Positions 17,216 through 37,610 of a stretch of 39,808 nt of DNA are shown piece by piece. Position 1 is the first letter of the stretch. Each line of letters begins with the position of its first letter. The notes under the pieces were generated by a model. That model worked only from the letters and a program-made list of their open reading frames with translations, did no database searches and was not told where the DNA came from. A program made the translations under genes and the position numbers. This DNA is from a bacterium (lineage in GTDB: Bacteria > Patescibacteriota > Saccharimonadia > Saccharimonadales > Saccharimonadaceae). Location: NCBI GenBank assembly GCA_030429975.1, contig JAUIGB010000009.1, forward strand, positions 1-39,808. Direction: 5' to 3'.

Positions 17216-17716
17216 ATGAAAAAATCAGTAATAATCACAATTTCAGCTGTAGCAATAGTCGTAATCGGAGCGGTACTGTATGTAGTATTATCACCAAATT
17301 CCGACTTAATGCCAACGGCAAACACCGGCCCATCACCATCAGCAAGCCCATCCGTTTCAACTGATCCAGAAACAGACGATATCGACGATACTCCCGTAGA
17401 TGTAGTGAAAGGTACGTACACGGACTATTCCGCGAATAAAGTAGCAAACGCCGAAGGAACAAAGGTACTGTTCTTTCATGCGCCTTGGTGTCCACAATGT
17501 CGCGCGTTAGAGCAAAGTATTCAGCAGGGTACCGTCCCTGACGGCGTGACAATATTCAAGGTGGATTATGACACCAACCAAGCACTTCGACAAAAGTACG
17601 GCATTACTATCCAGACGTCACTCGTCACAATTGATGATAACGGGGATTTGATCAAAAAGTATGTTGCTTACGAAGATCCCACTCTGGCTAGCGTCAAGGC
17701 TAATCTACTAAACTAG
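17216..17716 (+). CDS. Secreted/membrane-anchored thioredoxin-like protein
   Basis: N-terminal TM; VLFFHAPWCPQCRALEQSI CxxC. Confidence 0.88.
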   Translation: MKKSVIITISAVAIVVIGAVLYVVLSPNSDLMPTANTGPSPSASPSVSTDPETDDIDDTPVDVVKGTYTDYSANKVANAEGTKVLFFHAPWCPQCRALEQSIQQGTVPDGVTIFKVDYDTNQALRQKYGITIQTSLVTIDDNGDLIKKYVAYEDPTLASVKANLLN

Positions 17717-17718
17717 AT

Positions 17719-18447
17719 ATGACGTTACTTATACTTTCATTCTTGGCGGGCGTTCTCACAGTTACGGCTCCGTGCGTATTGATATTCTTGCCTGTTATTC
17801 TAGGTGGCTCTATGGTAGACGGCGATGCTAAAAGACGTAAGCTTCGGCCACTTATAGTAACTGGCAGTTTGGTCGTTTCGGTAGTTGTGTTCACGCTGTT
17901 ATTGCGAGTATCGACAGCATTCCTAGGAATAGATGACATGTTTTGGCAGATTCTTGCCGGCGGAATCATCATACTACTAGGTCTGCATTATCTGGGTGTG
18001 CCATTATGGGAGAAGTTCACGGGACTCATCAGGCTGCCAGTATTCGCTAATCGCGAACTAGCCTCGGCAAACAAGCAACAGGGTACAGGCGGGGCGATAC
18101 TTACTGGCGCCGCTCTGGGTCCGGTTTTCGCTAGTTGTAGCCCGACTTTTGCTTTTATCATCGCAGTTGCTATACCTGCGGATTTCACGCTAGGGTTAAT
18201 CTATCTGATCACATATGCCCTGGGTATGGCTGTCACGCTTTTGGCAATCGCATATCTAGGTCAGGCGGTTTTGGGTAAACTGAGAGTCCTCAACAACACC
18301 AAGGGCTGGTTAGCACGCACGATCGGTATTCTGTTTATCGTAGTTGGCTTGGCAATCATCACAGGCCTGGACAAAACTTTCCAGACGTTTGTACTAGAAC
18401 AAGGTTGGTACGATCCAATTACACAAATTGAAAACGATCTTATGTAA
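17719..18447 (+). CDS. ccdA: CcdA/DsbD-like thiol-disulfide transmembrane protein
   Basis: FLAGVLTVTAPCVLIFLPVILGGS; GAALGPVFASCSPTFAFIIAVA; polytopic. Confidence 0.88.
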   Translation: MTLLILSFLAGVLTVTAPCVLIFLPVILGGSMVDGDAKRRKLRPLIVTGSLVVSVVVFTLLLRVSTAFLGIDDMFWQILAGGIIILLGLHYLGVPLWEKFTGLIRLPVFANRELASANKQQGTGGAILTGAALGPVFASCSPTFAFIIAVAIPADFTLGLIYLITYALGMAVTLLAIAYLGQAVLGKLRVLNNTKGWLARTIGILFIVVGLAIITGLDKTFQTFVLEQGWYDPITQIENDLM

Positions 18448-19219: not shown

Positions 19220-19294
19220 AGGGGCATAGTACAACGGCTAGTATAAAGGTCTCCAAAACCTTAGATCTAGGTTCGATTCCTAGTGCCCCTGCCA
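19220..19294 (+). tRNA. tRNA-Trp (CCA anticodon), 3' CCA encoded
   Basis: AGGGGCA/TGCCCCT acceptor; GGTCTCCAAAACC anticodon arm; GGTTCGATTCC T-arm. Confidence 0.93.
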
Positions 19295-21292: not shown

Positions 21293-22159
21293 TTAAATAT
21301 GGGCCGTAATCAACACTATCGTCACGACAAACCCCGTAAACATATTTAACCATATGAAGCGTCGCCAGGCACGGTTTGCGAGGCCTGATTTTTTATCCGT
21401 AATGCCCAGATATGGCGCGATATTTACAGCGTAAATTAATCCGACTATACCAACAATCGCCGGCCCCAGACCTTGCGTGGCCAATAATATGCTTGATGCG
21501 ATGTAGAGTAGAAATGCACCGCGCACGGTCAAGCGTGCTCCTAGCGCAGTAGCGACAGACGACAGCTTACCCTCGCGATCTGGTATGATGTCTTGCACCG
21601 CTCCAAACGCATGACTAGCCAGCCCCCACATAAAGAACGCGACGATAAACGGGATGTAAGTCACTAAAAATCCCGTGAGTACCATGGCGTATAGCATCGG
21701 GCCTACGAAGTGAATGCTACTAGTGACAGAATCGAGCAGGGGAATTTCTTTGAACCTGAGCCCGGCAATAGAGTAGGCAATAACAAAGAACATTACGACT
21801 AGTAGCGTAATATTGGCTACGAATGAACCAACGGACAAAAGATACGTAACGAAGGGAATAGTTGTCAGCAGGGCCGACCATATGATTAGTGGATGTAAAG
21901 ACTTTTGCTCTTTGGCACCTTCCAGTCCACCCTTGCGCGGGTTACGTATGTCAGATTCATAATCGAATACATCGTTGATTCCATACATCAACATATTATA
22001 TGGAATCAAGAAAAAGATAGTTGCCAGCAAGAAAGTAGGACCCAGAGTACCGCCAGTAACCAAAAAGGCCGCGGCAAACGGATATGCGGTGTTTGGCCAT
22101 GATATGGGCCGAGAAATAAGCAGTAGTTTTTGTACTTTATTAAACATGGGAACCTCCAA
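21293..22159 (-). CDS. crtEb: UbiA-family prenyltransferase, lycopene elongase-like (CrtEb/LbtA type)
   Basis: YGINDVFDYESDIRNPRKGGLEG and DIIPDREGKLSSVATALGAR; directly after crtYc/crtYd. Confidence 0.85.
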   Translation of the reverse strand: MEVPMFNKVQKLLLISRPISWPNTAYPFAAAFLVTGGTLGPTFLLATIFFLIPYNMLMYGINDVFDYESDIRNPRKGGLEGAKEQKSLHPLIIWSALLTTIPFVTYLLSVGSFVANITLLVVMFFVIAYSIAGLRFKEIPLLDSVTSSIHFVGPMLYAMVLTGFLVTYIPFIVAFFMWGLASHAFGAVQDIIPDREGKLSSVATALGARLTVRGAFLLYIASSILLATQGLGPAIVGIVGLIYAVNIAPYLGITDKKSGLANRAWRRFIWLNMFTGFVVTIVLITAHI

Positions 22160-22430
22160 ACTTATGCCAAAGCGCGGGTATCAAGATTACTGCGACTAGC
22201 GCATAGAAAAAGTCTTCGACCGGAGCCAACAAAACGTAATATCCTAGAATTTTTTCGCTCGCATAACTAAACATATCCATCCAAATTAACAGGTTGTCGA
22301 ATACTAAAGTTAATAAGACAATCACGGATAGAGTAAATACCCAGGCACGAGATGGTTTACAGGGCCATCGTGCAAGCAGTATCCAGATGGCGAGCAACAC
22401 CATGACGTTTAATACTATGTACGTGGCCAT
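22140..22430 (-). CDS. Heterodimeric carotenoid cyclase subunit (CrtYd/CrtYf-like)
   Basis: FDNLLIWMDMFSYASEKILGYYVLLAPVEDFFYALVAVILIPALW; start moved to internal ATG 22430. Confidence 0.83.
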   Translation of the reverse strand: MATYIVLNVMVLLAIWILLARWPCKPSRAWVFTLSVIVLLTLVFDNLLIWMDMFSYASEKILGYYVLLAPVEDFFYALVAVILIPALWHKFGGSHV

Positions 22431-22729
22431 ATTCGTTCCCCTACACGGTAGATAACTAGCGTGCAATAACATAGAAGTATCAGAAAGAAAATTTCTTCGA
22501 CTGGGAATTCTGGAGCCAACGTAAACGGTAGCATGAACTGACTGTTCCCATGTATAAAAATTCCTTGTTTGATAGCTATTAGGTCCCACACGACAAATAC
22601 CAGGACGCCTACGGTAATAGTTAGTAAAGTTCTGGTACGATCATGCCAAAACGCCAACCGATAACGCCAGTCCAATGTTGCCATGCCCGCTATCGACAAC
22701 AACAAGCCCGCCAGATAGAACCACTGCAT
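22415..22729 (-). CDS. Heterodimeric carotenoid cyclase subunit (CrtYc/CrtYe-like)
   Basis: VWDLIAIKQGIFIHGNSQFMLPFTLAPEFPVEEIFFLILLCYCTLVIYR. Confidence 0.83.
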   Translation of the reverse strand: MQWFYLAGLLLSIAGMATLDWRYRLAFWHDRTRTLLTITVGVLVFVVWDLIAIKQGIFIHGNSQFMLPFTLAPEFPVEEIFFLILLCYCTLVIYRVGERIWPRT

Positions 22730-24261
22730 TACTTGTCGCTCCCTATAATCCTACGGATTTTCGACACAGGTCCACCCCTTTTCTCTCCGGCCAAGCGTTT
22801 GTATACAAGTTCAGCTCCAATGAGACACATCGGCAAGCCTATGCCCGGAGTCGTAGATCCGCCTACGTAGTAAAGGTTCTTTACTTTTTTACTTTTGTTT
22901 GGAGTTCTAAAAAAGGCTGACTGCCTAAGGATATGTGATGGCCCCAAAGCCGTACCCTGCCAGGCGTTATAGCTATCAATGAAATCATTCGGTCCGAATA
23001 ATCGCTTAACACCTAGTCGTTTGCGTAAATCAGGAATTCCCATGTGTTTTTCTATTTGTTCCAGATATCTATCGGCAACTTTCTCTATATCTCCAGAATC
23101 TATAGCTACTCCTGCCGGAAGCGGAACGAGAACAAACACGTTTTCGTCTCCGCTGGGCGCCACCGAATCGTCCGTTGCGCTTGGTTTGCATACATACACA
23201 GATGCTGGGTGGGGTATTTTTTTGCCCTTAAATATGTCGTCAAAATTCTTTTGCCAGTCATCAACAAAAAATAAATTGTGGTGCTCAAGCTGGGGGAGCT
23301 TTCCTTTTACACCTAGATACATCAATAACGCACTTGGTCCTGCCTCTCGTTTATTCCAGTATGATGACGGGTAGGAGCGGTGGTTTTTATCTAACATTTT
23401 TGTTTCCGTATAGTGCAAATCCGCGTTCGATATCACGATATCGCCCCTCACGGACTTTCCGTTTTGTAGCACTATCCCTGATACCGTACCGTTATCGGAA
23501 ACATCTATACGCTCTACCGGGTTATTGTATTGATACGAGACACCTAATTCCTTGCCTGCGGATACAATTTTTTCTATAACTGTATATATACCGCCCTGCG
23601 GATAGTACACGCCCTCTCGAAAATCAAGCGCACTCATCAAACTATAAAGAGCCGGCGCAGAGTAGGGCGAAGACCCCAAAAAGACCATCGGATATTCGAG
23701 AATCTGTCTAAGGCGCCGATCCGAAACATAACGTCTAACGTATTTATCTATCGGCATAAGTGCTAGCCGGGTCATAACTCGACCGCGCCCAATTATGTCG
23801 AGCTTCGTAAAATCGCGTATAGAACTAAAATTCGTATACAAAAAATATTTCATGGCTAAACGATAGATATCGTCGCCCTTGCTGACATAATCCAGCAACT
23901 TAACACCACTGCCTGGCTCGATTGCATCAAACGTTTGTGCATCGACCACGCTGTCACCGGTTACGGTGACCGGTTCCTCGGTTTCGAAGAATACTTTATA
24001 TGCAGGATTCAGCTTGGTAAGCTTTATCTCTTTATTAATATCCTTGCCTAATAGTGAAAAGTAATGAGAGAAGACCTCTGGCATCAGATACCATGACGGC
24101 CCGGTATCAAACCTAAAGCCTTTAGCTTCGTATATACCGGCTCGTCCGCCGGGCATACTGTTTTTTTCATAAACTTCAACATTATACCCAGCTTTAGCTA
24201 GTAGATTCGCGGTTGCGAGACCGCCAATACCAGCTCCGATAATAACGACCTTTTTGCTCAC
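22729..24261 (-). CDS. crtI: Phytoene desaturase
   Basis: KKVVIIGAGIGGLATANLLAKAGYNVEVYEKNSMPGGRAG; YYVGGSTTPGIGLPMCLIGAELVYKRL. Confidence 0.96.
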   Translation of the reverse strand: MSKKVVIIGAGIGGLATANLLAKAGYNVEVYEKNSMPGGRAGIYEAKGFRFDTGPSWYLMPEVFSHYFSLLGKDINKEIKLTKLNPAYKVFFETEEPVTVTGDSVVDAQTFDAIEPGSGVKLLDYVSKGDDIYRLAMKYFLYTNFSSIRDFTKLDIIGRGRVMTRLALMPIDKYVRRYVSDRRLRQILEYPMVFLGSSPYSAPALYSLMSALDFREGVYYPQGGIYTVIEKIVSAGKELGVSYQYNNPVERIDVSDNGTVSGIVLQNGKSVRGDIVISNADLHYTETKMLDKNHRSYPSSYWNKREAGPSALLMYLGVKGKLPQLEHHNLFFVDDWQKNFDDIFKGKKIPHPASVYVCKPSATDDSVAPSGDENVFVLVPLPAGVAIDSGDIEKVADRYLEQIEKHMGIPDLRKRLGVKRLFGPNDFIDSYNAWQGTALGPSHILRQSAFFRTPNKSKKVKNLYYVGGSTTPGIGLPMCLIGAELVYKRLAGEKRGGPVSKIRRIIGSDK

Positions 24262-25088
24262 CTTCGAAGCTTCTCCCGTATGACCACTTTTATAAGTATT
24301 ACGATTTTTTTGTAGTCAGAGACCCTCACTCGACTTTTCTTAATATTATCTGTTCGTGTGCGCTTGAGCTTTTTTAGTAATTCATTGTAATATTCATAAC
24401 TCAACACAGTTGCCGCTCGCGCCGTACGCGGAAGCTGACGGAGCGACGAATATGCCATGGAGAAGTCTTTCTCTATATCATCGATAATGGCTTTCTTTGC
24501 ACTTTCATCAAAGTCGTCAAATGTTACACCAGGAAAATAAAGCCTCCCAAGTTCCTTGTAGTCAGATGACATGTCTCGCAAAAAATTAACTTTCTGGTAC
24601 GCCGCTCCGAGAGCAGATGCGCCATTTTTGAGTCTGTCGTATTTGGCCATGTCACCTTCGCAAAAAACCCGTAGACACATCAAGCCTACCACTTCCGCCG
24701 AACCATAAATGTATTTTTTGTAATTCCGCTCGTCATAGTTTTGTGGGTTCAGATCCATTCGCATACTTGCGAAAAAGGGAGCAATCAATGGCTGATCAAT
24801 TTTATACTCACGAGCAGTCAAAGCAAACGCATGAACAATAGGGTTGGTACTATAGCCAGATTTCATTGCATCATACGTACTTGCTTCTAAGTCATCCAAT
24901 AACTTGCCGGAATCTGGTCCCTTGTAGGTGTCTACAATCTCGTCAGCAATACGCACTAGTCCATATATTGCGTAAATATGTGGCTTGACTTTACTACCGA
25001 ATAATCTACTACTCAGGCCAAAGGATGTTGAATAGCTAAGAGCGAGCGAACGACTATTGTCATACGAAACGCTGTTGTATAGATCCAT
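24258..25088 (-). CDS. crtB: Phytoene synthase
   Basis: YGLVRIADEIVD; ALGAAYQKVNFLRDMSSDYKELGRLYFP. Confidence 0.95.
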   Translation of the reverse strand: MDLYNSVSYDNSRSLALSYSTSFGLSSRLFGSKVKPHIYAIYGLVRIADEIVDTYKGPDSGKLLDDLEASTYDAMKSGYSTNPIVHAFALTAREYKIDQPLIAPFFASMRMDLNPQNYDERNYKKYIYGSAEVVGLMCLRVFCEGDMAKYDRLKNGASALGAAYQKVNFLRDMSSDYKELGRLYFPGVTFDDFDESAKKAIIDDIEKDFSMAYSSLRQLPRTARAATVLSYEYYNELLKKLKRTRTDNIKKSRVRVSDYKKIVILIKVVIREKLRR

Positions 25089-26155
25089 TATTTTGTCCGA
25101 TCCGTCACTTTTTTAATCAGAGCTTCAAAAGTATCTTGGTCTTCTCGATTAAACTCCAGAGCCCTCAGCGACTGGCGGGCCGTCACTACGTATTCGTTTA
25201 TCTCTGTCTCTGTCGCTAACCTCGCACCCGTGGATATCAACAATTGCTTTATTTCGTCAATTTCGGATGGTAATGCGTCTTTTTTACCAAAGAGGGCATC
25301 GAAACGAGACTTTTGCTCGTCGTTCATTGCCTGTACGGCTTTTTCTATCATGAATGTCCTTTTGCCCTCTGTAATGTCGCTGGTGGTGGATTTGCCAGTA
25401 GTAACTTCTTCGCCAAATACCCCTAGGAGGTCATCAACTAACTGAAATGCTATGCCTAGTGCTATGGCAAACTCGCGCAAATGGGCAATCTGCCTATCTG
25501 ATGCATCGGCTATCACGGCTCCTGTCAGAAGAGGTGTTATGAATGAATAACCTGCCGTCTTGTATCTAGCTATATTTAGTGCGCTACCATCACGATAGGG
25601 CAAAAAGCTCGATTCAGTATCGAGGAGCTCTCCTCCTGCTACTTCAAAAATCCCACGAGAAAGTAATTGTTGAGCAGATGTTTTCTCGCTATCACTCAAC
25701 TCACTAGAGGCTATCAAGCTATGCGCCCCCGAAAGAATTAAATCACCGCCCAATATAGCCGCACTGTGCGCGAAATGAACTTTGTCGTCATCAGAATCGA
25801 TGTGTTTTGCATATTCTTTTAGATAACTACCTGCTATATTGTCGGTTCCGTATCGTATGTAATCTCTATCTATAATGTCATCGTGGATTAGGAGGCTAAA
25901 ATGAAGCAACTCCTGCGCAACAGCTATAGGAATAAGCTTATCAATGTCCTTACCTCCGAATGCTCTATATGCATACAGTGTCATATGCGGGCGAAGACGC
26001 TTTCCACCAGAGTTGATTAAATCTCTAAGTATTTCCCATAGACGCTGATACGACGGGCCTATCTGCTTCGCTTGCGTTACCGATTGTTCAAAATATTCCT
26101 TGATCGCACGGTTGAGCAAGACAGTCAAATCAGATTGCGTTAAGTGTTGAGGCAT
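25088..26155 (-). CDS. crtE: Geranylgeranyl diphosphate synthase (polyprenyl synthetase)
   Basis: GGKRLRPHMTLYAY; LIHDDIIDRDYIRYG; AFQLVDDLLGVFG. Confidence 0.94.
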   Translation of the reverse strand: MPQHLTQSDLTVLLNRAIKEYFEQSVTQAKQIGPSYQRLWEILRDLINSGGKRLRPHMTLYAYRAFGGKDIDKLIPIAVAQELLHFSLLIHDDIIDRDYIRYGTDNIAGSYLKEYAKHIDSDDDKVHFAHSAAILGGDLILSGAHSLIASSELSDSEKTSAQQLLSRGIFEVAGGELLDTESSFLPYRDGSALNIARYKTAGYSFITPLLTGAVIADASDRQIAHLREFAIALGIAFQLVDDLLGVFGEEVTTGKSTTSDITEGKRTFMIEKAVQAMNDEQKSRFDALFGKKDALPSEIDEIKQLLISTGARLATETEINEYVVTARQSLRALEFNREDQDTFEALIKKVTDRTK

Positions 26156-26162
26156 TAGGACT

Positions 26163-26168
26163 ATTATA
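26163..26168 (-). promoter_or_regulatory. -10 box TATAAT of crt operon, 7 nt before crtE ATG
   Basis: minus strand TATAATagtcctaATG. Confidence 0.6.
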
Positions 26169-26780: not shown

Positions 26781-28709
26781 TTACAGATCATTGAATACTT
26801 CGTCCGTACCTGGTTCTGGAATTTCAAAACGGCCTTTGGCGTCTTTGTCTTTATTGTCCGTGCGATTATCTACAGGTTCGTGGTCACTATTATCAGTATT
26901 ATTTGAGTCATCGGGCGTTTTTTGATGATTGTCATCGCCAGACTTTGGTGCTTCATGTTCCTTTGGCTTGTTATTATTGACAGCCTCTATAGGTTTCGTG
27001 GAATGCTTTCCTACTACTGGAGTAGGGGCGGGCGGGGCAGAAGCTGGCTTTGGTTGCTCTGCACTCTTTGGCGCGTCACCGCCAAATGAAGTAATCTGGA
27101 GCGGAACCACGAAGCTGAATTTTGAACCGTGATCCAAACGACTCTCTACATCGATTTTGGTATTCAATTTTTGCGCGAGTTTCGATACCACGTACAATCC
27201 AAGTCCGGTACCACTAGATTCGCGAGTTCTGTAGTCCTCACTCCTGTAGAATTTTTGGAAAATATGGTCTAGGTCATATTGGCTCATGCCAATACCTGTG
27301 TCCTTCACATAAAAACGTATTTTTTCTTCACCCTCCATCATGGCGCCCATGGTAACGGTACCGGTTTTGGTATATTTGATTGAATTCGTTATAAAGTTTT
27401 GTAGAATTTCCTCTAAGTACAGTCTGCTGGTTTCTATCTTTGGCAAGCTAGACTCGGTATCAAGGTTCAGCTGCAGTTGTTTTGCCTCTGCCTCCGAAGT
27501 ATACCTATTATAGAGGTCATGCACCAAGGCATCAACGTCAATCGCTTCGACTATATCGCCAACTCCACGCTCCGCACGAGAAAGAGTAGATAAATCGTTG
27601 ATCATTTTTGCTAGATAAATTATCTGCTTGTGCGCGTCTTCTGCCGCTTCTCGCAGCTTGCCACGCTCAGCCTTTCTTTCGTCTAGTAGCAGTAGATTAC
27701 TCAAACTACCTTCAGCAATAGCCACGGGCGTGCGAAGCTCATGACTAGTCACACTAATAAACTCATCTTTTTCTTGTTCTAGTGATTTTTGCTTGGTTAT
27801 GTCACGCAAGATCAATACGACACCGTACTCTTCTGAATCATCAAATGTTCCACGTATTCTGGACATCTGTAGGCTAACTAATCTGGTTTTTTCGCCTCGC
27901 TTACTCGACAAATCGTCTCGAAATAGCGTAGCTTTGGTATCATTTATCAGTTGCCTCACGTACACCGGCTTATCTGACGTATCAACTAGTGCTAGCATAT
28001 TATCGATTTCTCGACCTATGAGGGACTGGTTCGTATCAAAAAAGGACTGTGCGGCTGCATTTTGAGTCGTAACCCTTCCGTACCTATTTAGCGTAACCAC
28101 GGCATCACTAATACTATTAATGAGCGTATTGAGCCTGGTTACTTGGAATCTCTCTGATCGCTGGGCGTCCATTAGCTGATCATTCTTTTTCTGGGCACCC
28201 ATAATTACGGTTACAAACATGTACGATGCGAATACGGTGATAATAACTACCAGTGTGGATAGAAACGAATATCCGACCAGGCCGCCACTTTCCGAGCTAA
28301 CGAATTCCGGAAATAATATGATATAGGCCGTAGAAAATCCAGCTAGACATAGACTACTAAGCCAAAAACCTATCCACCTGTAATACATAGACGCAAGCAA
28401 TATTAGAATTGCCCACGATACCGTAAAGGGACTATAGACCTGGCTAAAGTTAACCATTAATATGCCCATAGATATATGTAGCCAGACCAGTGCGGCTAAC
28501 GTAAAGCCTTCTTTGTGCGCCGCCAGTACCATTAACAATGGCACGATTACCAAATTCGATATATACGAGAAGATAATAACCCACGCGTAATCTTGAAATG
28601 TAACCGTCCCTAAAGCTATCTGAATAGCTAAAACAACGGAAATTAGAATTCCAACGCCAATAACACCATAGGCGATAGGCTTTGACAACATGCCCGAATC
28701 GTCAACCAT
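26781..28709 (-). CDS. Membrane sensor histidine kinase (polytopic N-term, PAS, HisKA/HATPase_c, disordered tail)
   Basis: FISVTSHELRTPVAIAEGSLSNLL; NFITNSIKYT; DTGIGMSQYDLDHIFQKFYR; SSGTGLGLYVV; TATACT 6 nt before ATG 28709. Confidence 0.92.
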   Translation of the reverse strand: MVDDSGMLSKPIAYGVIGVGILISVVLAIQIALGTVTFQDYAWVIIFSYISNLVIVPLLMVLAAHKEGFTLAALVWLHISMGILMVNFSQVYSPFTVSWAILILLASMYYRWIGFWLSSLCLAGFSTAYIILFPEFVSSESGGLVGYSFLSTLVVIITVFASYMFVTVIMGAQKKNDQLMDAQRSERFQVTRLNTLINSISDAVVTLNRYGRVTTQNAAAQSFFDTNQSLIGREIDNMLALVDTSDKPVYVRQLINDTKATLFRDDLSSKRGEKTRLVSLQMSRIRGTFDDSEEYGVVLILRDITKQKSLEQEKDEFISVTSHELRTPVAIAEGSLSNLLLLDERKAERGKLREAAEDAHKQIIYLAKMINDLSTLSRAERGVGDIVEAIDVDALVHDLYNRYTSEAEAKQLQLNLDTESSLPKIETSRLYLEEILQNFITNSIKYTKTGTVTMGAMMEGEEKIRFYVKDTGIGMSQYDLDHIFQKFYRSEDYRTRESSGTGLGLYVVSKLAQKLNTKIDVESRLDHGSKFSFVVPLQITSFGGDAPKSAEQPKPASAPPAPTPVVGKHSTKPIEAVNNNKPKEHEAPKSGDDNHQKTPDDSNNTDNSDHEPVDNRTDNKDKDAKGRFEIPEPGTDEVFNDL

Positions 28710-28772
28710 ATGTATAGTATACAAACTGTTTAAGCTTTATGCGATACCTGTGCGACACTTTTTATAATTTGA

Positions 28773-28787: not shown

Positions 28788-29339
28788 ATGAAGCCGCTGA
28801 AATTGAACAGACCATATATGATTTTGCTGGTAGGGATTCCTGGGTCAGGTAAAACTTTCTTTGGTAAAAAGTTTGCCAGTACTTTTGACGCTTCTTTCGT
28901 AGAGAGTCAGTTTTATAAAAATTTAGCGCGCGACGAAGCTTCTGGCGCCAAAATAGTCAATGACGTGATTTCTAAGATCATCTCATCAAAGCTACCAATC
29001 GTTATAGAAGGCTTTGGCCATACAAAAAAAGAAAGAAAAGAATTGATGAAGTTCGCTGAAAAGAACAATCACAAACCTCTATTTGTTTGGGTTCAGACCG
29101 ATCCAGTCGCGGCGGCTGACAGGGTAGCCAAAAGAACCACCAACGAGGAATTTCAGAAAATGGCAAACAAATTCCAACCTCTGGGCAGAGAAGAGCCTCA
29201 TGTCGTTATAAGTGGTAAACATACATACCAAACGCAGGTACGGGCTGTATTACGAAAAATAGCCGACGATCGGCCACCGCTACCGGCGATTACGTTAGAA
29301 AAAAATGGCAGAAAACCTATTTACGGCGACCGGTTGTAG
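28788..29339 (+). CDS. P-loop kinase/ATPase (AAA_33/zeta-like nucleotide kinase fold)
   Basis: LLVGIPGSGKTFFGKKFA Walker A; IVIEGFGHTKKERKELMKFAEKNNHKPLFVWVQTDP. Confidence 0.8.
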   Translation: MKPLKLNRPYMILLVGIPGSGKTFFGKKFASTFDASFVESQFYKNLARDEASGAKIVNDVISKIISSKLPIVIEGFGHTKKERKELMKFAEKNNHKPLFVWVQTDPVAAADRVAKRTTNEEFQKMANKFQPLGREEPHVVISGKHTYQTQVRAVLRKIADDRPPLPAITLEKNGRKPIYGDRL

Positions 29340-29346
29340 GTAATAT

Positions 29347-30036
29347 ATGCCAGTCATTCACGATGATGAATTCGGTGAGATAACAGTTCGCCGAAGCATG
29401 CGAGCGTCATCCGTCAGATTATCCGTCGGTCCGGATGGAAAGTTTCGTGCGTCGATGCCTACGTACGCACCAATATTCGTACTAAAAAGGCTGATTAGGA
29501 CTTCTAGGCCACAGCTTCGAAAAATGATATCCCACAACATGCCAGCCTATAAACTAGAGAACGGCCTACAAATAGGAAAAAGCCACAAACTAATAATCAC
29601 GAGTGGACAGAGCACGTCGGTAAAACGTAGCGGTCAACAAATACTGGTCACATTGGCCGATGGCGACATGCTGGCACATCCAGAAATAGAAAGAGAGGTA
29701 AGGCATGTCATAACCAAGGCATTGCGCATAGAGGCAAAAAACTACCTACCCAGGAGGCTCTCTTATCTGGCGGAAAAGATAGGATGTGAATACAAGAAAG
29801 CTCGATTTTCACATGCCGGTAGTAGGTGGGGTAGCTGTAGTAGTACCGGCACGATTAGCCTCAATATAGCACTGATGAAGCTACCACATGAACTTATAGA
29901 TTACGTGATCATACACGAACTTTGCCACACAAAGCAGATGAATCACTCCCCTAAATTCTGGGCATTAGTCGAAAACGCGGACCCGGAATACAAATCTCAT
30001 CGCAAAGAACTAAAAACACATTCACCAATGATTTAA
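29347..30036 (+). CDS. YgjP-like/SprT-like metal-dependent hydrolase (DUF45)
   Basis: SRWGSCSSTGTISLNIALMKLPHELIDYVIIHELCHTKQMNHSPKFWALVE. Confidence 0.92.
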   Translation: MPVIHDDEFGEITVRRSMRASSVRLSVGPDGKFRASMPTYAPIFVLKRLIRTSRPQLRKMISHNMPAYKLENGLQIGKSHKLIITSGQSTSVKRSGQQILVTLADGDMLAHPEIEREVRHVITKALRIEAKNYLPRRLSYLAEKIGCEYKKARFSHAGSRWGSCSSTGTISLNIALMKLPHELIDYVIIHELCHTKQMNHSPKFWALVENADPEYKSHRKELKTHSPMI

Positions 30037-31125
30037 TCAAGTGATTTTGCCTGTATTACGAACGGGTCGACCTTTCCACTTGATAACACCGAAGTTATAC
30101 TGCCATGTACTGATTATTAATAATCCAATTTCTTGGGCTATAGTGACCGGCAACAGCAAGGCGCCGACTAGTCTGTACCTAACCCAAACATTTGATAGGT
30201 AGTAATACGAAATCAAAAACTGCGCTATGATCGCACCTAGCATCCATGGATACCAAAACACCAACACGTACGGCGATAGTACCGTTACTAGCAATAATAT
30301 TAACCAGCAGACCTGTACCGGATTTTTACTAGACTGCGGATAAAGCAGGCGAATACTTGTTTCGACTTGTGATGACCAACGTTTTTCATAGCTCAGCCCT
30401 AACCACTTATTGCTCATAACAAGCCTGTACTGATTGGAGATAGCTAGCTTTCGGGCAACGTATGTTTCCATCTGCACCGACAACGGCAGTCTGTCGCTTG
30501 TCTCTATCTCGTTTAAAATTGTTTTTCTGTCTATCAGCCAAGCATTCGCGGCTGCCCTGGGCTTATGGGGGCTAAACCGCATTAACGTCCAAAAATGACG
30601 CATGGTAGTGAAAAGCGTACTAGTCGTCCAGTGGTCGTTACGAATCGGCACCACCGAAACCATCTTTGACTTATGCCGTATATAATATTGCACCAACCGC
30701 ATAATAGTATGGCGTTCTATTAGCGTGTCCACATCCAAAAAGAAAACTATTTCACCACTGGCGTGATCCGCTAGTACCGCCTGTGCGTGATTTTTACCCA
30801 ACCAACCATCTGGCAACTTTTTACCTTCGACAAAACGCACGCCAGCATGTGCGAACGACTTTATTAATATAGAAGTATCATCACGCGAGCCATCATCCAT
30901 CACGATAATCTCGAGCTTTGGATAATCACTCGCTACGACACGCTCTAGACACTGGGTCATGGCATGAGTTTCGTCGCGCGCGGTGATGCACACGGTTACG
31001 GTGGGATGGTCGTGCGATTCACGTTCGACGACGCCAATACGTAGCATTTTGAGCACACTGTACAGCTTGATCAGGACGTATAGATCGATGATACCGACGA
31101 TTGCAAGTATAATGATATCAACCAT
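30037..31125 (-). CDS. GT2-family membrane glycosyltransferase (CrtQ/HpnB-like)
   Basis: VTVCITARDETHAMTQCLERVVASDYPKLEIIVMDDGSRDDT; KLPDGWLGKNHAQA; VIKWKGRPV; start reassigned to ATG 31125 because 31392 overlaps secE. Confidence 0.8.
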   Translation of the reverse strand: MVDIIILAIVGIIDLYVLIKLYSVLKMLRIGVVERESHDHPTVTVCITARDETHAMTQCLERVVASDYPKLEIIVMDDGSRDDTSILIKSFAHAGVRFVEGKKLPDGWLGKNHAQAVLADHASGEIVFFLDVDTLIERHTIMRLVQYYIRHKSKMVSVVPIRNDHWTTSTLFTTMRHFWTLMRFSPHKPRAAANAWLIDRKTILNEIETSDRLPLSVQMETYVARKLAISNQYRLVMSNKWLGLSYEKRWSSQVETSIRLLYPQSSKNPVQVCWLILLLVTVLSPYVLVFWYPWMLGAIIAQFLISYYYLSNVWVRYRLVGALLLPVTIAQEIGLLIISTWQYNFGVIKWKGRPVRNTGKIT

Positions 31126-31228
31126 TACCTTTATATTAACATGGATATTGACAATACCACCGTAATCATCTATACTTGACTTGACGTCTGCAGAGCAGAC
31201 TTTTTTAATTTGTGAGGAGTTTTGACTA

Positions 31229-31624
31229 GTGGCCAAGAAAAGATCCAAAAAGCAATCAGCCGATAGCGACAGCAACGTTGTTCGCATCAAAGCTGGTGCG
31301 CCTACACCCAAAAAACGCGAAGAGGCCAAAGAGGCTGTCGTAACAAAAACAGTTGCAAAAAAACCCGAAAAGCCAAAAACGAAAGCAGTCAAAGCGCCCG
31401 TAGTTAAAAAACCAAAGGTAAAGACCGGTGGCGGTCCACTACGCGCATTTGGTGGCTACTTCAAAGGTGCATGGTTCGAGTTACGTCAGGTACGCTGGCC
31501 AAATCGCCGCGCCACTTGGAGCATGACCCTAGCCGTATTGTTATATAGTGCGTTTTTCGTAGTAATAATTCTACTTCTAGACGCCGCATTTAAATATATG
31601 TTTGATCTGATTTTAGGAAAATAA
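31229..31624 (+). CDS. secE: Preprotein translocase SecE with long K/P-rich N-terminal extension (GTG start)
   Basis: WFELRQVRWPNRRATWSMTLAVLLYSAFFVVIILLLDAAF; followed by nusG. Confidence 0.9.
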   Translation: MAKKRSKKQSADSDSNVVRIKAGAPTPKKREEAKEAVVTKTVAKKPEKPKTKAVKAPVVKKPKVKTGGGPLRAFGGYFKGAWFELRQVRWPNRRATWSMTLAVLLYSAFFVVIILLLDAAFKYMFDLILGK

Positions 31625-31634
31625 GAGGAGAAAT

Positions 31635-32180
31635 ATGGTAAAGAATCGATACGACAGCACTCGCCAATGGTATGCAATCCATACTTACAGCGGTTATGAA
31701 GAAAAGGTAGCGGACAGCATTCGTCAGCGTATTAACGCGGTAGACATGGCCGACAAAATCTTTGATGTAATGGTGCCAAAAGAAAAGCAAATTCAAATCA
31801 AAAACGGTAAACGCAAAGTTGTCGAAGCAAAAATATTCCAAGGTTACGTTTTGGTAGAGATGAAGCTATCCGAAGAAACCTGGTTTATTGTCCGCAACAC
31901 CCCTGGTGTGACCGGATTTGTTGGTAGCGGGTCCGATCCTACTCCTGTATCCGATAGCGAAATTACCAAAATCAAGAAGCGTATGGGCGTCGAAGATCCA
32001 AAGCATCACATCGACTACGCCGAAGGTGAAGTGGTTAATATAATCGACGGCCCGTTCAAAGGCTTCGATGGTTCTATCAGCGAAATCGACACACAAAAGG
32101 GCAAGATTAAAGTCATGGTCAGTATGTTCGGTCGCGACACGCCCGTCGAATTGGACGCATTACAAGTTAATAAGGTCTAA
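31635..32180 (+). CDS. nusG: Transcription termination/antitermination protein NusG
   Basis: RQWYAIHTYSGYEEKVADSIRQRI; NIIDGPFKGFDGSISEIDTQKGKIKVMVSMFGRDTPVELDALQV (KOW). Confidence 0.97.
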   Translation: MVKNRYDSTRQWYAIHTYSGYEEKVADSIRQRINAVDMADKIFDVMVPKEKQIQIKNGKRKVVEAKIFQGYVLVEMKLSEETWFIVRNTPGVTGFVGSGSDPTPVSDSEITKIKKRMGVEDPKHHIDYAEGEVVNIIDGPFKGFDGSISEIDTQKGKIKVMVSMFGRDTPVELDALQVNKV

Positions 32181-32193
32181 GCAAAACACACTA

Positions 32194-32223
32194 AAGAAGT
32201 CCGGAATACCGGACTTCTTTTTT
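32194..32223 (+). terminator. Strong intrinsic terminator after nusG
   Basis: AAGAAGTCCGG-AATA-CCGGACTTCTT-TTTT, 8 nt before next ATG. Confidence 0.9.
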
Positions 32224-32231
32224 GGAGGAGT

Positions 32232-32630
32232 ATGAATAAATCCCCTAGATACGAAGTACACGCAATAATTCCTAGCAAACATGATCCCGATACTCATGTT
32301 TTTCATTACTTTGGTGAATATCCTCAACACCAAGAAGATTTCAGAACAGGGCTGACACAAGAACATATCCTAGAAAAAATGGTTCAAAACATATTGGGAC
32401 GTCGCATATCCTACGACAAACAAATTAGTCGTAAAAAATTCATGGGGCAATTCGGTATGATTTACGAATCACACCTACAAACAGATGCAATTTCGATGCA
32501 AGATGATTTGCCCGACGAATACGGATGGTATCAGGTCAACAACGAAAAAGGCCCTTTTGGCATGGAACAAAGCGGAAGATGGGTAATACTACCCCGTAAA
32601 CTACGTAAACAAAGAGATGAACAAAACTAA
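32232..32630 (+). CDS. Hypothetical protein (132 aa)
   Basis: GGAGGAG SD; intact ORF inserted between nusG and rplK. Confidence 0.65.
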   Translation: MNKSPRYEVHAIIPSKHDPDTHVFHYFGEYPQHQEDFRTGLTQEHILEKMVQNILGRRISYDKQISRKKFMGQFGMIYESHLQTDAISMQDDLPDEYGWYQVNNEKGPFGMEQSGRWVILPRKLRKQRDEQN

Positions 32631-32650
32631 CATTATCTGTAATATTATGG

Positions 32651-32656
32651 TATAAT
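32651..32656 (+). promoter_or_regulatory. -10 box TATAAT for micro-operon
   Basis: ggTATAATaggcaagctctcgg; predicted TSS at the 5' hairpin. Confidence 0.55.
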
Positions 32657-32659
32657 AGG

Positions 32660-32686
32660 CAAGCTCTCGGTCGAGAGTTGCTTTTT
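32660..32686 (+). promoter_or_regulatory. 5' hairpin with T-tract immediately upstream of micro-operon ATG
   Basis: GCAAgCTCTCGGTCGAGAGTTGCTTTTT. Confidence 0.6.
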
Positions 32687-32691
32687 AAATT

Positions 32692-32820
32692 ATGGAGATG
32701 ATCGGGATAGGGCTGTTCGCTCTGGTGATCGGTATGGCTATCCATGCCGTAGCCACGATTATAGCCCCACGCTGGCACGAACGCTTTGATAAACTACTAC
32801 AGCCGGGAGACAAGAGATGA
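32692..32820 (+). CDS. 42-aa single-TM peptide (micro-operon ORF1)
   Basis: MEMIGIGLFALVIGMAIHAVATIIAPRWHERFDKLLQPGDKR. Confidence 0.55.
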   Translation: MEMIGIGLFALVIGMAIHAVATIIAPRWHERFDKLLQPGDKR

Positions 32821-32924
32821 ATCGCTCGCAGGAATTAAACACCGCGATTGCCATTGGCATCATTGGCGTAGCCGTGTTGGTACTATTCCTTGGCATCGAC
32901 CAGTTGATGGAAGAGACCTCGTGA
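32817..32924 (+). CDS. 35-aa single-TM peptide (micro-operon ORF2)
   Basis: MNRSQELNTAIAIGIIGVAVLVLFLGIDQLMEETS; ATGA overlap with ORF1. Confidence 0.55.
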   Translation: MNRSQELNTAIAIGIIGVAVLVLFLGIDQLMEETS

Positions 32925-33064
32925 AGGTACTCCCATGGTTAGGGGCTTGCACGGCAGCCGGTCTAGTCGGCTTCGTCTATGGCAAGCTCCACGACAAAGA
33001 ACACTATTGGCGACGTTACGGCGATGCCGTTAACTACACGCCACCGATCAAACCGCAAAGGTGA
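32921..33064 (+). CDS. 47-aa small membrane protein (micro-operon ORF3, GTG start)
   Basis: (V)KVLPWLGACTAAGLVGFVYGKLHDKEHYWRRYGDAVNYTPPIKPQR; GTGA overlap with ORF2. Confidence 0.55.
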   Translation: MKVLPWLGACTAAGLVGFVYGKLHDKEHYWRRYGDAVNYTPPIKPQR

Positions 33065-33068
33065 CAAA

Positions 33069-33167
33069 ATGAAAGCCGTCGTCATATACGCAATCGCCGC
33101 CTTCCTAGGAGTCAAACTGCTCGCACGATATGAGCACAAAGTTGACCAGATGGAACCTCGTCGGTGA
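33069..33167 (+). CDS. 32-aa single-TM peptide (micro-operon ORF4)
   Basis: MKAVVIYAIAAFLGVKLLARYEHKVDQMEPRR, 4 nt after ORF3 stop. Confidence 0.5.
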   Translation: MKAVVIYAIAAFLGVKLLARYEHKVDQMEPRR

Positions 33168-33182
33168 GGAAAATAAACTAGC

Positions 33183-33210
33183 GGTTGCACTCACGACCGA
33201 GAGCGCAACC
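33183..33210 (+). terminator. Hairpin downstream of micro-operon (no clear T-tract)
   Basis: GGTTGC...GCAACC; contains GACCGAGAGC, inverted copy of the upstream GCTCTCGGTC. Confidence 0.45.
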
Positions 33211-33224
33211 CTGAAATTATATGA

Positions 33225-33230
33225 TACAAT
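33225..33230 (+). promoter_or_regulatory. -10 box TACAAT, 6 nt before ATG 33237
   Basis: gaTACAATtcctccATG. Confidence 0.45.
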
Positions 33231-33236
33231 TCCTCC

Positions 33237-33608
33237 ATGGCATTTCATGGATATACAGAGGACGATTATTTCGTAAAACGTGGTCGTCAACAGATGAACG
33301 AAGACATCTCTCATATTGATGACGACGCTACGGCACCGGAACTCGCACGCGTACAGGAACGGTTTTATGTCGGTCATATTGGCGTAAAATTATCCGTAGA
33401 GAAAGATAATGTGGAGATTGTTAAAAATCAATCACTCGCACAGGTAGAGGCGGCTACAGAACTTAATGATCAGCGAGACGTCCGACAATACGGCGCAGTC
33501 GCCAAGATGGCAGATTATTATCTATCTATCATGAGCCTGGACGGGCGCATACCCATCATCCCCAGAAAACAACTGAATATATATAAAGAACTCCTTGAAG
33601 AGTCTTGA
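33237..33608 (+). CDS. Hypothetical protein (123 aa)
   Basis: Intact ORF with upstream -10 box. Confidence 0.6.
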   Translation: MAFHGYTEDDYFVKRGRQQMNEDISHIDDDATAPELARVQERFYVGHIGVKLSVEKDNVEIVKNQSLAQVEAATELNDQRDVRQYGAVAKMADYYLSIMSLDGRIPIIPRKQLNIYKELLEES

Positions 33609-33646
33609 TTATAACGCTTACATCTGTTAAAATAACTCCGTTACGC

Positions 33647-33674
33647 ACTAAATATGCTTCAATAAATATTTAGT
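33647..33674 (+). promoter_or_regulatory. rplK 5'-UTR hairpin
   Basis: ACTAAATAT-N10-ATATTTAGT perfect 9-bp stem. Confidence 0.6.
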
Positions 33675-33694
33675 ACAAGAAAGAGAATAATTAT

Positions 33695-34120
33695 ATGGCC
33701 AAAAAAGTAATTGGTAATCTAAAACTACGTATCCCAGCTGGTCGTGCGACCGCAGGGCCTCCTGTTGGCTCGACACTAGGTCAATGGGGTCTGAACATGA
33801 TGGATTTCATCAATCCATTCAACGACGCTACGAAGGGCGATATGGGCAAAGACGTTATCGTACATATTCGCGTATTCGAAGATCGTACTTTTGACTGGAA
33901 AAGCTTGGGCCAACCAGTTGATGACGCCATTCGTGCTGCAATCGGCATCAAAAAGGGAAGCGGTAAACCACACGCTGAAAAAGTTGGCAAGATCACTCGC
34001 GCGCAACTAGCCGAAATCGCAGAGGCAAAGAAAGATCACTTGAATGCAATCGATGAGGAAGGTCGCATTAAAGTGATTGCCGGTACAGCCCGGAGCATGG
34101 GCGTCGAAGTAGTCGATTAA
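33695..34120 (+). CDS. rplK: 50S ribosomal protein L11
   Basis: GNLKLRIPAGRATAGPPVGSTLGQWGLNMMDFINPFNDAT; GSGKPHAEKVGKITRAQLAEIAE. Confidence 0.96.
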   Translation: MAKKVIGNLKLRIPAGRATAGPPVGSTLGQWGLNMMDFINPFNDATKGDMGKDVIVHIRVFEDRTFDWKSLGQPVDDAIRAAIGIKKGSGKPHAEKVGKITRAQLAEIAEAKKDHLNAIDEEGRIKVIAGTARSMGVEVVD

Positions 34121-37115: not shown

Positions 37116-37610
37116 ATGTGGGCAAACTCAAAAAAGCAAGGTTTTACGATAGTCGAGCTCCTCATAGTCGTGGTGGTGATAGGTGTGCTTGCCGCGATTG
37201 TGATAGTTGCATATAACGGGATTACCGCTAGTGCAAACGACTCGAAGCGGGTTTCGGATTTACGTAGCCTAGCAAAAGTGATCGAAATATATAAAGTCGA
37301 AAATGGAGGCTATCCTAGGTGTGGCGCGACTGGCCCAAACACGACACCATCCTTATCGTCAGGAACAGCGCAAGCCTGTCTAGCCGACGAACTAGTGCCG
37401 GACTATATTGGCGCGATCCCCGTAGATCCAACGAATTCTGGATCATATGTATACCGATACGCAGCGGGCTATAGGCAAACCGGTACTACATCATTTACTG
37501 GTACGCCTGCAAGTGATAATTATATTCTAGGCGTTAGATTAGATGGAACTACGTCACCAACGTACTCGGGTTGGGGCTTCAGTGATTTGACCTATCTCAC
37601 GGGTTCATAA
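37116..37610 (+). CDS. Type IV pilin / pseudopilin
   Basis: KKQGFTIVELLIVVVVIGVLAAIVIVAYNG prepilin peptidase/N-methylation motif; Cys pair; TATAAT 11 nt upstream of ATG. Confidence 0.93.
   Translation: MWANSKKQGFTIVELLIVVVVIGVLAAIVIVAYNGITASANDSKRVSDLRSLAKVIEIYKVENGGYPRCGATGPNTTPSLSSGTAQACLADELVPDYIGAIPVDPTNSGSYVYRYAAGYRQTGTTSFTGTPASDNYILGVRLDGTTSPTYSGWGFSDLTYLTGS

Follow-up and report, generated by a model that had tools for sequence, protein, structure and literature searches.

Genes and putative promoter of the carotenoid operon

The DNA analyzed here, hereafter the window, is a stretch of 39,808 nucleotides (contig JAUIGB010000009.1, assembly GCA_030429975.1) from a Saccharibacteria genome (G000) of 1.02 Mb in 38 contigs, which is 98.9% complete with 0.04% contamination. 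It harbors six genes, crtE-crtB-crtI-cycA-cycB-UbiA, organized as one minus-strand operon at 21293-26168, with overlaps of 1 to 16 nt between adjacent genes, and the set is that of a putative pathway to a cyclic 50-carbon (C50) carotenoid. Families were assigned by Pfam and NCBIfam profile searches with curated cut-offs and tRNAs by ARAGORN; loci and genomes are coded L and G, respectively.

The first gene, crtE (25088-26155), encodes a geranylgeranyl-diphosphate-synthase-like polyprenyl synthetase of 355 aa (PF00348, 9.7e-49) with DDIID as the first Asp-rich motif, and its matches to the NCBIfam GFPPS/GGPP_syn models lay under the curated cut-offs. It is followed by crtB (24258-25088) for a phytoene synthase of 276 aa (PF00494 or SQS_PSY, 2.8e-40; DxxxD motifs DEIVD and DMSSD) and crtI (22729-24261) for a phytoene desaturase of 510 aa with an N-terminal FAD-binding region (TIGR02734 or crtI_fam, 541 bits against a cut-off of 238). 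Next come the genes for two carotenoid cyclase subunits, cycA of the CrtYc/CrtYe type (22415-22729, 104 aa; TIGR03462, 55.5 bits, cut-off 39.4; PVEE motif) and cycB of the CrtYd/CrtYf type (22140-22430, 96 aa; TIGR03462, 44.2 bits, and PF18916, 27.7 bits, both above cut-off; PVED motif). The open reading frame (ORF) of cycB was listed up to 22589, and the ATG at 22430 is the start conserved in its relatives (MATYxxLN). The last gene (21293-22147) encodes a lycopene elongase-like UbiA prenyltransferase of the CrtEb/CrtE2 type (PRK13105, 393 bits, cut-off 217) with the motifs NDVFDYESD and QDIIPDR; its ATG at 22147 is preceded by GGAGG, the formal ORF start being a TTG at 22159.

Direct inspection of the sequence showed a −10-like box, TATAAT, on the minus strand at 26163-26168, 7 nt before the crtE ATG, as in leaderless-type promoters. 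A comparable box lies 6-10 nt before the crtE start in most relatives from the genus and the family, as TATAAT/TATAGT 7-10 nt before the ATG. Since the box recurs in most relatives despite otherwise unrelated flanks, the operon apparently brings its own promoter, which would probably give a leaderless message. A previous analysis made from the letters of the window alone (the sequence-only reading) had described a complete, co-oriented crtE-crtB-crtI-two cyclases-UbiA operon within a reduced patescibacterial genome. The family assignments and gene overlaps, together with the size, completeness and low contamination of the genome, are in agreement with that description; its motifs PVEEIFF, PVEDFFY and NDVFDYESD were found exactly, and its TATAAT 7 nt before crtE holds at 26168-26163 and is reinforced by the recurrence in relatives.

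Conserved motifs and elongase families

The motif residues N62, D63, D66, D70, R75, K76, Q189, D190 and D194 of the UbiA protein, among them the catalytic Asn, Asp, Arg and Lys, were invariant in 70 homologues. The PxEE motif of the first cyclase subunit is kept in Saccharimonadia and Micrococcales, and PxED is likewise conserved in the partner subunit. A scan of named genomes with the window elongase returned Saccharibacteria as the best matches (up to 71% identity), followed mostly by Micrococcales (50-56%). Close homologues (45-54% identity) occurred in 38 of 395 genomes sampled from the actinobacterial class, the next matches following after a gap at ∼34%.

The elongases fell into three NCBIfam groups, namely, PRK13105 (Saccharimonadia, including the deep-branching genome G076, and Micrococcales), PRK12875 (remote members of the Candidate Phyla Radiation, CPR) and PRK13595 (one actinobacterial outgroup sequence). 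Among the elongases assigned to PRK13105 are those of Glutamicibacter, Arthrobacter, Herbiconiux and Rhodoluna. The window elongase scored 114 bits against PRK12875, under the cut-off of 205, and its operon contains cyclase genes, unlike a bacterioruberin-type set; it combines crtE, crtB and crtI with two cyclase subunits and a UbiA elongase of the family found in C50 producers, as cyclic-C50 operons do.

Two other arrangements were observed. In remote CPR (L032-L036), crtI, mostly with crtE and crtB, occurs with a UbiA gene (PRK12875 where tested) and no cyclase pair; these genes probably serve acyclic C50 carotenoids. In G328 (L030:8097-10151), the UbiA elongase is fused to a family 2 glycosyltransferase, which suggests that a different lineage of Saccharimonadia glycosylates its C50 carotenoid.

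Precursor supply

Neither GcpE, a marker of the methylerythritol phosphate (MEP) pathway, nor HMG-CoA reductase of the mevalonate pathway was found in the 10 genomes sampled from the genus (G000 and nine congeners), and each of 14 controls gave a match to one of the two. Type-2 isopentenyl diphosphate (IPP) isomerase was not found in these 10 genomes either, and type-1 IPP isomerase had no match in G000, with matches below the cut-off in five congeners only. The search for IPP and dimethylallyl diphosphate (DMAPP) synthesis or idi, which the sequence-only reading had proposed, was thus run for marker genes, and none was found in G000, which leaves the pathway without a known point of entry inside the cell. 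With no MEP, mevalonate or isomerase marker found in G000, IPP and DMAPP, or farnesyl diphosphate (FPP), are probably scavenged from other bacteria, most plausibly from the attached host. A soil Saccharibacteria genome has likewise been reported without IPP synthesis, its precursors likely being scavenged (PMC6031116).

Predicted pathway, product and role

The reading favored here, with a probability of roughly 75%, is that the operon makes a cyclic C50 carotenoid akin to decaprenoxanthin or sarcinaxanthin in the Saccharibacteria cell, from scavenged precursors. The host cell to which the epibiont attaches would supply IPP and DMAPP (or FPP). CrtE would condense an allylic diphosphate with IPP to geranylgeranyl diphosphate (GGPP), CrtB would join two GGPP to phytoene, and CrtI would desaturate phytoene to lycopene. 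The UbiA enzyme would then add one C5 unit from DMAPP to each end of lycopene, giving a flavuxanthin-like C50 chain whose end rings the two-subunit cyclase would close. In Corynebacterium glutamicum and Micrococcus luteus, flavuxanthin forms when the elongase attaches two C5 units to lycopene, and the cyclase then closes it; E. coli given crtYe-crtYf-crtEb together with lycopene-making genes formed cyclic C50 products (PMC6393565). The six genes follow the order of the Corynebacterium enzymes, and the pigment of Arthrobacter (Glutamicibacter) arilaitensis, of the Micrococcales, is mainly decaprenoxanthin (PMC6262435); the sequence set included Glutamicibacter soli, A. arilaitensis being outside it. 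A decaprenoxanthin-like product appears most likely, and its ring type could be epsilon, gamma or beta.

The cyclase might instead act on lycopene itself to yield beta- or epsilon-carotene, the UbiA protein serving quinone or other prenylation. CrtYc/CrtYd pairs with C40 products do occur in the same cyclase family (PMC2889829), and the ring type of the window cyclase is not assignable from the sequences compared. However, in nearly all loci the UbiA gene comes immediately after the cyclase genes and overlaps them, its product belongs to PRK13105 with the elongases of C50-type operons, and no quinone gene recurs beside the operon in the Saccharimonadia loci; a C40 product is therefore considered unlikely. 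It is also quite unlikely that synthesis stops at a flavuxanthin- or bacterioruberin-type C50 chain with inactive small subunits. Such an acyclic end product would resemble what the cyclase-less CPR loci may make, and bacterioruberin genes have been reported in Lake Baikal Patescibacteria (PMC9948471). In the window, by contrast, both cyclase subunits are intact, their PxEE/PxED motifs are conserved throughout the Saccharimonadia set, the ratio of nonsynonymous to synonymous substitution (dN/dS) was 0.09-0.18 in the few unsaturated pairs, dS being saturated in most, and the elongases of the cyclase-less CPR match a different NCBIfam model, PRK12875.

Several points weigh against a cyclic C50 product made from scavenged precursors. 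The enzyme activities and the presence of pigment in Saccharibacteria are deduced from sequence, and the characterized Corynebacterium and Micrococcus sequences lay outside the gene trees, so the ring type was not assigned. CrtE and CrtB reached no NCBIfam equivalog cut-off, though their Pfam scores were good; such low equivalog scores are as a divergent lineage might show. The precursor search covered marker genes only, in a genome of 38 contigs and 98.9% completeness, and other routes of IPP synthesis or isomerization may exist.

The pigment would reside in the membrane, protecting the cell from oxidants or tuning fluidity. Rhodopsin (PF01036) was absent from the 10 genus genomes in a search in which no control gave a match; when repeated on 10 further operon-bearing Saccharimonadia, it again gave none over the cut-off, and four actinobacterial controls were detected. 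A rhodopsin link for the genus was rejected on this result, as the sequence-only reading had anticipated in finding a retinal role unsupported. As rhodopsin was not found, the pigment more probably serves as an antioxidant or in the membrane than in light-harvesting. Saccharibacteria rhodopsins without retinal synthesis have been reported earlier (PMC9296517).

Comparison with known C50 systems

The C. glutamicum operon crtE-cg0722-crtB-crtI-crtYe-crtYf-crtEb resembles the window operon in its enzyme set, in the order of the six genes and in the overlapping cyclase genes (PMC5401885, PMC6393565). The window operon differs from it, in a comparison drawn from the literature and not from sequence, in having no cg0722-like gene between crtE and crtB; no divergent crtR-like regulator was seen beside it, and IPP/DMAPP synthesis was not detected in the Saccharibacteria genome that carries it. 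The C50-type operons of Micrococcales (Microbacteriaceae, Micrococcaceae, Cellulomonas and others, e.g., Herbiconiux L083 and Glutamicibacter L099) have the same order and motifs, with elongases 45-55% identical to that of the window and in the same PRK13105. They form a separate clade in another phylum with much larger genomes, whereas the Saccharimonadia operons match the genomes they lie in by GC (guanine plus cytosine) content and have a leaderless-type promoter box. The sarcinaxanthin cluster of M. luteus, crtE-crtB-crtI-crtE2-crtYg-crtYh, contains the same kinds of enzymes, including a heterodimeric gamma-cyclase and an elongase (PMC6393565), but there the elongase gene precedes the cyclase genes; the M. 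luteus sequence was outside the trees. Lake Baikal Patescibacteria, including a Saccharibacteria genome, carry the bacterioruberin genes lyeJ, crtD and cruF and so share with the window C50 potential and a lycopene elongase; however, that product is acyclic, the genes are different and reported as scattered instead of in one operon, and a heterodimeric cyclase is not mentioned (PMC9948471).

No earlier report of a cyclic C50 operon in Saccharibacteria was found in the open-access literature, subscription papers not being covered. The kind of operon is already known; what is new is the lineage that carries it, the separate clade and the missing precursor pathway. A gene set for a rare ring-bearing 50-carbon carotenoid, previously tied to Actinobacteria, is present in a Saccharibacteria genome that is very small and probably that of a parasite. 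CPR bacteria are regarded as having given up costly biosynthesis, yet an intact six-gene pathway for an elaborate membrane pigment has been kept. Its retention with no isoprene source found implies uptake of prenyl diphosphates (or other isoprenes) and enough benefit from the pigment. It also offers a testable visible trait, a predicted yellow C50 carotenoid detectable by liquid chromatography-mass spectrometry, for epibionts known mostly by sequence.

Distribution and genomic context of the operon

Within the genus, the elongase was found in five of the 10 genomes including G000, and the other four carry the complete six-gene set with its order unchanged. Among 380 genomes sampled evenly from the phylum, 23 gave a match to the elongase. 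The sample also included 23 genomes of the same family, and the operon was present in five of these including G000, one of the four beyond the genus being ended by a contig end. Rearranged operons occur in G076, from another family of the same order, and in G328, from the same class. A chance assembly of genes is excluded by 20 further loci of Saccharimonadia with the identical set, several of which are cut off at contig ends. Across the 21 Saccharimonadia loci only the six genes recur, besides the flanks of two closely related loci and a small number of isolated gene pairs or triplets, and no accessory gene (glycosyltransferase, idi or regulator) is conserved in the flanks. The operon is hence a self-contained unit that occupies different places between genomes.

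Such a patchy distribution could mean that the operon is ancestral baggage being lost and has no present function. In G279 (L029:9528-9911), one of the 23 family genomes, only a scar remains, with the crtE start fused in frame to the UbiA end and flanks matching those of the operon-bearing G262 at high tblastx identity; it follows that loss of the operon by deletion happens. Decay of the window operon is nevertheless very unlikely. Every one of its six reading frames is open, as it is in four congeners whose proteins are 44-72% identical and whose synonymous changes have reached saturation, and the promoter box is conserved.

The operon lies in a variable stretch bounded on the left by tRNA-Trp (19220-19294, plus strand) and on the right by a sensor histidine kinase gene (26781-28724, minus strand; Pfam HisKA/HATPase_c), both being context and not part of the pathway. 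The kinase occurs both in operon-bearing congeners and in congeners that lack the operon, and it lies apart from the operon in G001, G005 and G008. Both flanks of the window are collinear with congeners. The right block (28788-34120) and the left block (e.g., 17216-18447) meet at the histidine kinase/tRNA-Trp in G001 and G007. The gap from kinase to tRNA-Trp is within about 220 bp in G001, G004 and G005 and 7.5 kb, with the operon, in the window; G007 has a different insert of about 6 kb there. The stretch beside tRNA-Trp and the histidine kinase (window 19220-19294 to 26781; L052, L053, L055, L058) is an insertion hotspot in the genus. A degenerate second copy of the tRNA-Trp 3′ end, with three mismatches, occurs about 170 bp downstream of the tRNA in G001, and a search of the window for such a duplicate as an attachment site at the far edge of the insert found none; integration at the tRNA is only suggested. 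In G245 (L025:10648-10722), a tRNA-Gln lies 59 bp past the operon end, a second instance in which the operon adjoins a tRNA gene. Plasmid carriage was rejected, matches being limited to one Arthrobacter megaplasmid and haloarchaeal plasmids.

In another part of the window (37116-37610; also L051:1009-2676), a family of short ORFs was noted, with several tandem homologues in the congener G009 that adjoin an ORF of 2775 aa (L051:3479-11806).

Gene trees and origin of the operon

Trees were built for UbiA (71 rows), CrtI (58 rows), CrtB (56 rows) and a five-gene concatenation (44 rows); they hold no Corynebacterium or Micrococcus sequences, and long branches occur. Micrococcales formed one group in all four, with support for CrtI (98/99), CrtB (100/99, excluding two loci with an unrelated crtB) and the concatenation (SH-aLRT, an approximate likelihood-ratio test, 100). 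The window operon grouped with its genus in all four trees, outside the Micrococcales group. Leaving G076 aside, Saccharimonadia were sister to Micrococcales with CrtI and the concatenation and paraphyletic around them with UbiA and CrtB; in the UbiA tree, one Saccharimonadia row (L090) joined Micrococcales at 69/52, which is no evidence. The position of G076 varied, being outside both groups with CrtI and UbiA and beside Micrococcales with CrtB. With G076 counted, Saccharimonadia enclosed the Micrococcales clade in all four trees, and a single clade of all Saccharimonadia including G076 was rejected on the concatenation (approximately unbiased test, p 0.0019).

A recent horizontal import from an actinobacterial host, or a contig chimeric with actinobacterial DNA, might be suspected from the gene order shared with Micrococcales operons, the more so as actinobacteria are known Saccharibacteria hosts (PMC9296517). 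Against this, the operon GC of 44.4% is close to the 45.1% of the window, with similar GC at third codon positions; this match with its own genome agrees with an old presence of the operon. The flanks are collinear with congeners, four of nine of which carry the operon, and homologues lie on long contigs, including the single contig of G076 (909,550 bases, a 0.91 Mb genome). The possibility of a chimeric contig, raised for checking in the sequence-only reading, was rejected on these grounds. The Micrococcales clade, moreover, does not contain the window operon, and recent import is accordingly judged highly improbable.

The trees point instead to one ancient exchange between the Saccharimonadia and Micrococcales lineages, in either direction. 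Of the two origins offered by the sequence-only reading, the lineage's own pigment is probable, and transfer from an actinobacterial host, as worded there, is not supported, the Micrococcales clade excluding the window operon. The gene trees it had called for do place the Saccharimonadia sequences near Micrococcales but not nested inside them. Since Saccharimonadia enclose Micrococcales once G076 is counted and the single-clade constraint is rejected, a tentative suggestion, itself rather doubtful, is that the cyclic-C50 operon of Micrococcales came from Saccharimonadia, i.e., from an epibiont lineage to the phylum of its hosts. In either direction, the operon clearly records an old exchange of genes between Saccharibacteria and the phylum to which their known hosts belong.

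A contig titled Chloroflexi bacterium PMG_070 (SEAL01000015.1, L061), from a 1.1 Mb genome, fell within Saccharimonadia for the operon genes, and its title is probably wrong.

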